This document shows, piece by piece, positions 15,275 to 18,502 of a stretch of 47,762 nt of DNA. The notes beneath the pieces were generated by a model, which ran no database searches, was not told the DNA's origin, and saw only the letters and a program-made list of their open reading frames with translations. The position numbers and the translations under genes were made by a program. The DNA comes from Thermotogae bacterium (lineage in GTDB: Bacteria > Thermotogota > Thermotogae > Mesoaciditogales > Mesoaciditogaceae). Numbering within the stretch: the first letter of the stretch is position 1; every line of letters begins with the position of its first letter. The stretch lies in the NCBI GenBank assembly GCA_026988035.1, contig JALSLY010000056.1, positions 1 to 47,762 on the forward strand, given 5' to 3'.

Positions 15275-18200
15275 TCAGAACAGAGAAAACCCAAAACTAC
15301 CCGTCACGGGATCGAAGGAAACAAATTTTTCTGGAAAGGCTGTTATGTAAAGTGTGAGCGCAAATTTTGAAAGTTTGAATCCGCCTACTGTAGAGAAATT
15401 AATCGTACCCCTTAGTCCCATACAATCCCAAAGTTTTAAAAAGTTTAAGGTCACGGATTGTAACTGCCCATTTGAATAGCTTCCCTTTGAAGAGAGGCTA
15501 ATGCCAAGGGGCTTCAATTTTCCAGACATGGCAAATTTGAGATCGTTTATCGAAAAATCTTGGCTTTTTATCATAAACTGCGTTGACAACTTAAAATTTG
15601 AGAGGAACAGTAAGTTCTTAAGAGATGCGGTAAATTTATTTGAAATATCGGAAAACTTTTTGGAATTGTAATCATACAGTGTTTCAGCATGGTAAGCAAA
15701 ACCAGGCCACTTTGAACTGAAGGAATATTTTGTATTCACAAACTTTAGAGATGGTTCTATTATCGTACTCGTGTTTAACACGTTCTTCATTGCAAAAACG
15801 TCGAATTTTGACGAAGTGGTAAGTAACACATTTGACCATGGATGTGTTTGATTGTTAAAATTATATGAGAACTTAGCCGAAGCGTTCAGTGGAATGACTG
15901 GAAATTTATAATTAAGAGAAAATCCAATGTTGTTTTGATAATTGTGCGTGTCAAAACTTGAAATATCTCTTCCTCCAACTTGTATCAAAGTGTGAAGTGC
16001 TGAAATTTTGAGCCCAAACAGATCATAAGATAGTTTCGTTTTTAATATTGCAGCAATTCTATTTGCAATTGTCACATTCCCACTTTCTGCTTTAAATCCC
16101 GTTTTTGCTCCATATGATAAATTCAAACCCAATCCCCAAAATTTTGCACCCAAAGAATTGAAATTATAGCTCGCGTCTGCAAAGCTTGCATACTTTACAG
16201 GTTGATTAGATGAAAAGGATACGTTTCCTGAGTAAGCCCCTGAAATGGATTTGAGCGTAAACAAACGAAGTGGCCATGAGAACTTTCCAGAAATAGAGTT
16301 GGCGTCTGAAAAATTAGCTGAAGGCAATGAAAAATGAGCCTTTCCAGCTACTTTACCAGTGATGCTTAATGCACCTATGGATGTTCGAAGATTAGTTATC
16401 TTGTAAGGTACATCGTAATTTTGCACATTCTTTGACACAGATTGAATAGCTTTCAAGGAAAGTGTACCACCTGCAACAGGTCCTGAAAGAGAAAGGACAG
16501 AACCTTGTTTATTGGACATCACGTCATTTTGATAGTTAAAAGATGTTTTATACGATCTAAAAAAAGTTCCAGATATTCCAAATTTAACAAGCTCACTTAA
16601 TTTAGAACCATTTTCTGAAGAACTTGCGTATGAAAGTGAATAAGGCAATCCAAATAATTTCCCAGCCAAATCAAATCCCTGATTTAGAGGTCCCTTTTGA
16701 TAAGAACTAAAGTGCACATCACCATTTAGGGAAGAAGTCGGAGCAAAGTTGAATTTCACAGCTGTGTACCAACCTTTACTAACCGAATAGTTGAAGGAAA
16801 CCTCCATGGGTTGTTTCCCTCCAGCTAATGAGTAGTAATATTGAGGCAAATACATAACAGGTATTCCAAATATATACATCACCACATTATAAGCAATTAG
16901 ATGATCATCTGGAACGATGTAAATCTCAGAGGCTTCAACTTTGTAGTGCGGGGGACTCGCTGTACATGTGGTTATATATCCGGGTTTTATGATACTTGTT
17001 CCAGAAGCTGTATCATAGAATGCTTTATCACCCCTGAAATACACATTTTTTTTAACTCCTTTGGCATTCTTAACCTTAACAGCTCCCCAAATATTGTCGA
17101 CAAGAGCCATTTCTTTTTGAAATTCAACCGTTATCTTTGAGGAAAATATCTTTCTCTTTCCTTGAGTATAAACAACATTTCCCACAAAAACAGCATATGA
17201 AGCATGACCTTTTTTATTGAAAAAGATGCTCACTTTTGATGCGGCTATGCTGTAATTAAGAGATTCAACTGTGACTCCTCCAGTATAAACCACTTCGGTA
17301 GCCGAAAGAGTTTTCAACTGTCCAGCAGTGATTTTAAGCAGTTGAGAACCGAAAGCTCGATTAGATATTCCCAAAACAAAGATGATCAAAAGAATTGGCA
17401 CGATTCTGATCAAAGTTTCCTTTATCTTGAACATCAAACGACTATCTAAAAGTAGGAAGAAAAATATTCCAACAACTGCAAAAATCAGATCAGGAAGCCA
17501 TGAAGCTAATATTGGTTGAATCATTCCATTTTCTCCCATAGCGCTCAACCAGGCTCCTGCACCTTGATAAAGAACCACCAAGATAAAAGTTATTATCACA
17601 CCCCAAGATTTGCTTTTTATCCCAAAAAATAACGAAAATGGAACGCCAAAGAAAGCGATAATAAAAGCTCCCAAAGCATTAGCAAAACGCGAGTATAATT
17701 CAACTTCGAAAGTACTTGGATTAAGCCCCAATTTTCTGAAAAGATTTATTCGTTCTCTTAACTCTTGTGAGCTCATGGCATCCGGTGGTTTTTGTGAACG
17801 TATGTACTTAATAACTTCCTCTGTTATATCCAATTTCATAGTGTTAAAAGACATATCGAAATCCATCAACCCATTTTTGACGGTATACATTCTCCCATCT
17901 TTTAAATACCAATTTCCATCTTTAAGGTATGCACTTTTAGCATATATGACGGAAATGTTGTTTCCAGATATGCGATACATGAGAACAGTGCTAAATTTCT
18001 CTGTTTTTGGATCGAATTCTTTCACATAAAAATAGCTGTTGTTCGCCTTAAAAAATGTGTTCGTTTCTACTTTTGGCAGTGAAGAATGCCACACATTTTT
18101 TGCCTCAAATTCCTTCGCCATAACAGTAAAATTCGGAACTACGTAATCTTCGATCAAATATGTGCCAACTGCCAGGATCACTCCCATCATTAAAAAGGGA

Positions 18201-18502
18201 ATCACGATCTTCTTTAGGTTTATGCCATGAACTTGAAATGCCATAAGTTCGCGTCGTGCTGAGAAATTCGACAACACCCAAAAGATCGCAAGTAAAGTAC
18301 CAACGGGGATACCCATCACGATGAATTTCGGAAGATAATAGTAAATCAAAACAAAAAGTTCCCAAAACCCTACGCGATTTTGTATTATGATATTTGATAT
18401 CTGGTATAGCAATTCAACACTTACAAAAATTATAAAACCCACTAATCCGATGAAAAACGGCATGACAAATTCTTTGGACACATACTTATAAAGGGTTTTC
18501 AA
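15275..18502 (-). CDS. LptF/LptG permease fused to LptA-like and LptD-like domains
   Basis: One continuous 1075-residue frame holds three parts of the lipopolysaccharide export bridge. Residues ~1-355 are an LptF/LptG (YjgP/YjgQ) permease with membrane segments ~12-35, 50-78, 98-118, 275-294, 299-320 and 330-353 and a periplasmic domain between the third and fourth. A seventh hydrophobic stretch (~364-380), ending in AFG/SQ with a possible signal-peptidase site after Gly385, leads to an OstA/LptA-like domain (~386-500). Then comes an LptD-like region with TTCTASPPHYKVEA (511-524) and GIPVMYLPQYY (546-556). The rest, to 1075, has alternating beta strands and ends in GFSLF, the terminal Phe expected of an outer-membrane barrel. 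In proteobacteria these are separate proteins in different compartments. No lptB or second permease is nearby. The start is 2 nt after phoU. Confidence 0.85.
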   Translation of the reverse strand: MKTLYKYVSKEFVMPFFIGLVGFIIFVSVELLYQISNIIIQNRVGFWELFVLIYYYLPKFIVMGIPVGTLLAIFWVLSNFSARRELMAFQVHGINLKKIVIPFLMMGVILAVGTYLIEDYVVPNFTVMAKEFEAKNVWHSSLPKVETNTFFKANNSYFYVKEFDPKTEKFSTVLMYRISGNNISVIYAKSAYLKDGNWYLKDGRMYTVKNGLMDFDMSFNTMKLDITEEVIKYIRSQKPPDAMSSQELRERINLFRKLGLNPSTFEVELYSRFANALGAFIIAFFGVPFSLFFGIKSKSWGVIITFILVVLYQGAGAWLSAMGENGMIQPILASWLPDLIFAVVGIFFFLLLDSRLMFKIKETLIRIVPILLIIFVLGISNRAFGSQLLKITAGQLKTLSATEVVYTGGVTVESLNYSIAASKVSIFFNKKGHASYAVFVGNVVYTQGKRKIFSSKITVEFQKEMALVDNIWGAVKVKNAKGVKKNVYFRGDKAFYDTASGTSIIKPGYITTCTASPPHYKVEASEIYIVPDDHLIAYNVVMYIFGIPVMYLPQYYYSLAGGKQPMEVSFNYSVSKGWYTAVKFNFAPTSSLNGDVHFSSYQKGPLNQGFDLAGKLFGLPYSLSYASSSENGSKLSELVKFGISGTFFRSYKTSFNYQNDVMSNKQGSVLSLSGPVAGGTLSLKAIQSVSKNVQNYDVPYKITNLRTSIGALSITGKVAGKAHFSLPSANFSDANSISGKFSWPLRLFTLKSISGAYSGNVSFSSNQPVKYASFADASYNFNSLGAKFWGLGLNLSYGAKTGFKAESGNVTIANRIAAILKTKLSYDLFGLKISALHTLIQVGGRDISSFDTHNYQNNIGFSLNYKFPVIPLNASAKFSYNFNNQTHPWSNVLLTTSSKFDVFAMKNVLNTSTIIEPSLKFVNTKYSFSSKWPGFAYHAETLYDYNSKKFSDISNKFTASLKNLLFLSNFKLSTQFMIKSQDFSINDLKFAMSGKLKPLGISLSSKGSYSNGQLQSVTLNFLKLWDCMGLRGTINFSTVGGFKLSKFALTLYITAFPEKFVSFDPVTGSFGFSLF

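Follow-up and report, generated by a model that had tools for sequence, protein, structure and literature searches.

The components of Lpt lipid exporters are taught as separate proteins, each of which has to meet its partners across the cell envelope. A single open frame in a contig of a Thermotogae bacterium (Mesoaciditogaceae; GenBank assembly GCA_026988035.1, contig JALSLY010000056.1, positions 1 to 47,762; this whole stretch of 47,762 nucleotides is called the window) raises the question of whether pump and exit pore can be encoded together and, if so, how one product would come to serve two membranes. An earlier interpretation, made from the letters alone (the sequence-only reading), had divided the frame into an inner-membrane permease, an LptA-like bridge and an LptD-like outer-membrane barrel. 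Here, we report a computational analysis of this frame. We favour, at a probability of about 0.72, a polyprotein of an Lpt-type lipid exporter in which an internal signal sequence would export an LptD half that is cut off near residue 385, the permease would work with LptB, and LptD would be inserted via Bam.

Gene and domain architecture

The uninterrupted 1,075-codon frame that had been described at 15275-18502 is present, without stops, and lies on the minus strand, which the sequence-only reading had left unstated. Its TTG start codon (18502-18500) is preceded on the 5' side by a GGAGG ribosome-binding site (18515-18511) and begins three bases after the phoU stop codon (18508-18506); dnaB is the next gene after it. 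This is a normally placed gene and not a fortuitous frame. Elsewhere in the window (19441-22731, minus strand), a hemL-like gene, two AsnC/Lrp-like regulators and a radical SAM protein stand in a row that resembles an alternative haem/sirohaem decarboxylation (Ahb/Nir) cluster. The features of the fusion gene are as follows.

15275..18502, minus strand: lptFG-lptD fusion gene, 1,075 codons, TTG start (open frame; SD GGAGG; architecture repeated in relatives)
17456..18487, minus strand: LptF/LptG permease module, residues 6-349 (PF03739, E 1.7e-75; Foldseek LptG, E 4.7e-16)
17348..17431, minus strand: internal signal-peptide-like segment, residues 358-385, core 365-379 (hydropathy; signal peptides of split orthologues; lowest pLDDT at 377-387)
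17345..17350, minus strand: proposed signal peptidase I site 385/386, AFG/SQ (small -1 residue in 40/43 relatives, sites picked by eye; putative cleavage)
16868..17347, minus strand: OstA/taco domain of LptD, about residues 386-545 (PF03968 at 437-506; LptD profile match; strands in models)
15278..16864, minus strand: predicted LptD-type beta barrel, about residues 547-1075, Phe end (AlphaFold pLDDT 89.6; top 37 Foldseek matches LptD)
16964..16966, minus strand: Cys513, TTC motif, aligned with the conserved cysteine after the LptD taco domain (43/43 relatives)
15422..15424, minus strand: Cys1027 near the barrel end, proposed disulfide partner of Cys513 (34/41 relatives; weakly aligned to CGCW of LptD)

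The permease assignment covers nearly the whole family profile (Pfam PF03739, profile positions 1-351 of 353), and the NCBIfam LptG and LptF models also match the fusion protein, each below its equivalog cut-off. Hydropathy, AlphaFold secondary structure and Foldseek matches to LptG agree on transmembrane helices around a periplasmic beta domain. This is the single LptF/G match in the window's genome, and no second LptF/G gene was found there.

Downstream of the junction, LptD_N/OstA (PF03968, E 5.6e-8) was matched in Pfam, and NCBIfam LptD matched residues 389-553 (E 4e-9; N-terminal part only and far below the equivalog cut-off). A sequence profile of residues 386-1075, built from 33 relatives, found LptD (E 5.5e-8) and LptA in the PDB. 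The Pfam LptD barrel models gave no match to the barrel of the fusion protein. Structure was predicted for the full chain with 43 sequences (mean pLDDT, 81.6; pTM, 0.42; lowest at 141-145 and at 377-387, the latter being the junction) and for residues 386-1075 separately (pTM, 0.62), where OstA strands are followed by about 30 long strands. A barrel was predicted in both models. Searched with Foldseek against the PDB, the full chain returned LptD for its first 15 matches (E to 1.4e-22) and then LptG and LptF (E to 4.7e-16), and the LptD half alone returned LptD for all of its first 37 (E to 6.3e-22); TM-scores to LptD were modest (mostly 0.2-0.4) and rmsd high (13-16 angstrom), which supports the fold class and not the atomic detail. 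The chain ends in ...SLF, as expected from the terminal phenylalanine already pointed out.

The protein of the window has only two cysteines, C513 and C1027, both at LptD disulfide positions; the matching cysteines of E. coli LptD form functionally important disulfides. The invariant TTC cysteine aligns with the cysteine of the LptD TxC motif, and the LHCW motif at C1027 aligns weakly with CGCW of Neisseria gonorrhoeae LptD; seven of 41 relatives lack the second cysteine. Because the domain and profile matches and the cysteine positions agree, the C-terminal 690 residues are identified, by sequence and by predicted fold, as LptD (taco domain plus barrel). Within this half, two variations were seen among relatives. 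L082, L088, L091 (Thermosipho) and L101-L103 keep the TTC cysteine and have another residue in place of the second one (LHHW, LHKW), so that the disulfide is lost or re-paired there. The fused protein of Kosmotogaceae and relatives (L047, L048, L089, L090) is 1,461-1,494 aa long, with an extra 300-400 residues in the LptD half.

The proposal of three joined parts thus stands for two of them, permease and LptD-like barrel in one chain, and falls for the third. An added LptA bridge within the chain was rejected: the OstA segment is the N-terminal domain of LptD itself, and LptA is a stand-alone gene. This LptA-like gene lies elsewhere in the window's genome (G000:C70:11329-11973), shares 73% identity with the OstA protein from a genome of the same genus, and has counterparts in most of the Thermotogota.

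Distribution and split orthologues

The permease was found in 100/103 Thermotogota genomes, nearly always in single copy, and 89 of 104 counted permease matches belong to frames 900 aa or longer. Among the shorter frames, several stand at contig ends (e.g., L083, L085, L093, L096, L100), and others are disrupted by frameshifts (G093, G040) or by a stop within the frame (G043). Athalassotoga saccharophila, in its complete genome (NZ_AP019551, L066), and the one-contig genome G090 both have the fusion intact. A search of the collection also returned, unexpectedly, contigs of Candidatus Bipolaricaulota/Acetothermia with identical architecture. In that phylum the permease is present in 91/100 genomes, and 76 of 90 matches, among the matches listed, are in frames of at least 900 aa; the full-length aligned proteins have two cysteine pairs in the LptD part, CxC and CxxC. 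Fusions were seen across the Bipolaricaulota (L104, L105, L108-L110, L112-L114; G103-G202).

An assembly or frameshift artefact is ruled out by the recurrence of the architecture across Thermotogota and Bipolaricaulota. The survey of related genomes that had been suggested places the fusion in two phyla, and not as a peculiarity of the window's genome. None of the refuting outcomes named in the sequence-only reading (a frameshift or assembly join, no OstA/LptD match in the C-terminal half, no predicted barrel) was observed.

Two Thermotogota lineages have the halves apart. In L098 the break in the frame falls precisely on the junction: the permease terminates with EPLKRLLG-stop, and an ATG a few bases after this stop opens the signal peptide of a free LptD, MHLRYKSFSPVLFIISLFFIILSGTKVFS/ATAY (here and below, a slash marks the presumed cut). 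In G005 there are two separate LptF/G genes side by side, the only case of two adjacent copies, and LptD stands apart on another contig (L136), as a gene of 849 aa that starts with the signal peptide MVIKKFKKNQIFHILILIILLIPLMAFTQ/DE. The fusion has no signal peptide at its own N-terminus and carries one-like sequence internally instead; its LptD is a module inside the fusion and not a free LptD. In both split lineages the N-terminal signal peptide of the freed LptD corresponds in position to the seventh hydrophobic segment of the fusion.

In a tree of the permease part, L098 joined L079, which is fused (100/100), and the G005 copies joined the fused L094 and L097 (97/95; long branches), with Bipolaricaulota apart. 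Since the split lineages nest inside fused clades, the splits in the L098 and G005 lineages look secondary and the fusion looks ancestral in Thermotogota. For L098, which is a single metagenome assembly, a sequencing error at the break cannot be fully excluded; ahead of the hydrophobic core, however, it has a longer stretch than its fused relatives, which is what a genuine new N-terminus would be expected to show. G005 also encodes, next to an rseP-like gene (L119:4297-6159, minus strand), a 621-aa protein with several OstA repeats, which looks like a long preassembled LptA bridge.

Junction and fate of the chain

A seventh hydrophobic segment follows the permease at residues 365-379 (hydropathy) and runs into RAFG/SQ; residues 356-385 of the window protein read LMFKIKETLIRIVPILLIIFVLGISNRAFG, then SQ. 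The C-terminus of LptF/G permeases lies in the cytoplasm, and the next segment must therefore cross outward. As judged from its residues, the segment has the features of a signal peptide. A possible signal peptidase site, AFG/SQ, had been put forward by the sequence-only reading, and the comparison of relatives is consistent with it. The junction sequence is variable; at presumed cleavage positions picked by eye in 43 relatives, 40 have A, G, S or C at -1, and F, W or L predominate at -2. Bipolaricaulota have the sites AWA/QE and VTWA/QE, and the small OstA (LptA) proteins of Thermotogota have N-terminal signal peptides of similar style (e.g., MKKNLLIVLLLCLFITSFA/KTVH). The -3/-1 rule is broken at the chosen site in 6/43 relatives, and a few sites are poor (e.g., L078, STR/G). 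Rule-based -3/-1 scans for signal peptidase sites did not separate the junction from other transmembrane ends of the permease, TM2 above all, and a scoring matrix built from 18 T. maritima proteins settled on an incorrect register. L094 and L097 have a long Pro/Thr/Ala-rich linker (about 40 residues in L094) between the signal-like segment and the OstA domain.

The failure of these simple scores to discriminate the junction would fit a chain that stays uncut, in which the seventh segment is a permanent anchor like the LptC transmembrane helix and one polypeptide joins the inner-membrane permease to the outer-membrane barrel, forming a self-contained, covalently continuous route for lipid from one membrane to the other wherever the two come close. 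It would fit, too, that no LptC match was found in the window's genome (LptC matches occurred in 19/103 genomes, mostly weak and mainly on the small OstA protein), where seventh helix and taco domain could serve instead. We nevertheless consider an uncut chain unlikely. The same segment is an N-terminal signal peptide in the split orthologues, small site-like residues are conserved though the junction sequence varies, and a separate LptA would be superfluous. We know of no protein inserted by Bam while still anchored in the inner membrane. Distance also favours cleavage: the Omp-alpha spacer of T. maritima has a coiled coil with a predicted length of 45 nm (PMC9388160), a width that one taco domain cannot bridge, and the only about 160 taco residues between helix and barrel would be too short for such a wide periplasm. 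Of the two fates offered earlier, polyprotein or chain spanning both membranes, the cleaved polyprotein is thus favoured and the spanning chain less likely; we infer cleavage mainly from the split orthologues, the topology and the distance.

Partner proteins and cargo

LptB was identified in the window's genome (290.6 bits; cut-off, 240), and the survey for lptB in relatives that had been proposed gave one strong match in 29/31, the window's genome included. In that genome lptB is clustered with bamA, rsmH, ftsI and uvrC (L040, G000:C29, 9514-15562).

LpxC, a key enzyme of lipid A (LPS) synthesis, was found in 0/103 Thermotogota and 0/8 Bipolaricaulota genomes, with control genomes positive. 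An earlier study likewise lists Thermotogae among the phyla without LPS genes (PMC5007114), and the absence from Acetothermia is in line with PMC6092417. With LpxC in 0/103 genomes, the exported cargo is probably not LPS, which agrees with the earlier caution that the cargo was open. T. maritima is known to contain glycolipids (PMC8788747), and such lipids have been proposed as the cargo of LPS-less Lpt systems (PMC10353723); by analogy, the cargo is possibly a glycolipid. The same absence of LPS genes, together with the divergence of the barrel, would also suit an Lpt-like machine with a non-lipid cargo, or one inactive in transport and retained for envelope architecture. This is improbable: LptB and a separate LptA are kept alongside in nearly all genomes, as for a working exporter, and LPS-less Lpt systems with a proposed glycolipid cargo have been described (PMC10353723).

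Proposed mechanism

The least probable source of the LptD half, wholly or in part, is internal translation initiation with the fusion product minor or accidental: an in-frame TTG with upstream AAGGA stands ahead of the segment in the window gene and ATG358 would yield a good signal peptide, but SD-like internal starts are not conserved (4/43 relatives; in some, the stretch offers no possible start codon), so that the fusion has to be the source of the LptD half, and the unbroken fusion frame is itself conserved.

For the cleaved polyprotein, we propose the following steps. The permease would end in the cytoplasm and the seventh segment would enter the Sec channel N-in, passing the LptD half into the periplasm, where signal peptidase I would cut after about residue 385 (AFG/SQ). 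The N-terminal product (about 385 aa) would dimerize, probably as a homodimer since there is no second LptF/G gene, and work with LptB. The signal segment left on it by the cut would be a seventh helix and may stand in for the LptC helix; it would be dispensable, because the split lineages are without it. The C-terminal product (690 aa) would form the C513-C1027 disulfide and be inserted in the outer membrane by Bam, and the separate LptA, the small OstA protein, would bridge permease and LptD. A single gene would fix a 1:1 supply of pump and exit pore. The exported lipid would not be classical LPS and may be a glycolipid.

Relation to known Lpt systems

The system resembles the canonical LptB2FGC-LptA-LptDE machinery of E. 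coli and other Proteobacteria in its LptF/G fold, its LptD taco and barrel fold and cysteine positions, LptB and LptA. It differs in having permease and LptD in one frame, one LptF/G gene instead of two in the window's genome, no clear LptC, and no LpxC and hence no classical lipid A. The reduced Lpt cluster of diderm Firmicutes (Negativicutes, Halanaerobiales) likewise has one LptF/G homologue, LptB and OstA-domain proteins; those bacteria make LPS, and available parts of PMC5007114 mention no fusion for them. The Lpt orthologues of Borrelia burgdorferi are similar in that they occur in a diderm without LPS, with a glycolipid cargo proposed (PMC10353723). The same paper notes Lpt orthologues in T. 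maritima, from the phylum of the window, attributing them to Putker et al. 2015, in a passage that does not mention the fusion; the portion seen of the main text of the T. maritima toga proteome paper (PMC3387000) does not name the gene. A search of the open literature found no description of an LptF/G-LptD fusion; subscription papers lay outside that search, and domain databases may hold the architecture implicitly. The modules are known, and the arrangement is new so far as the open literature goes.

A 2022 survey reported Thermotogae to be without nearly all of the outer-membrane genes it studied, bamA excepted (PMC8871954); despite that survey, Thermotogota carry the Lpt core (LptB, LptF/G, LptA and LptD). 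In two phyla a single product comprises both the pump and the exit pore, and it is probably a polyprotein, rare among bacteria, that carries its signal peptide internally. The fusion makes two questions testable: which lipid LPS-less diderms export, and whether the outer membranes of Thermotogota and Bipolaricaulota share a common ancestor.
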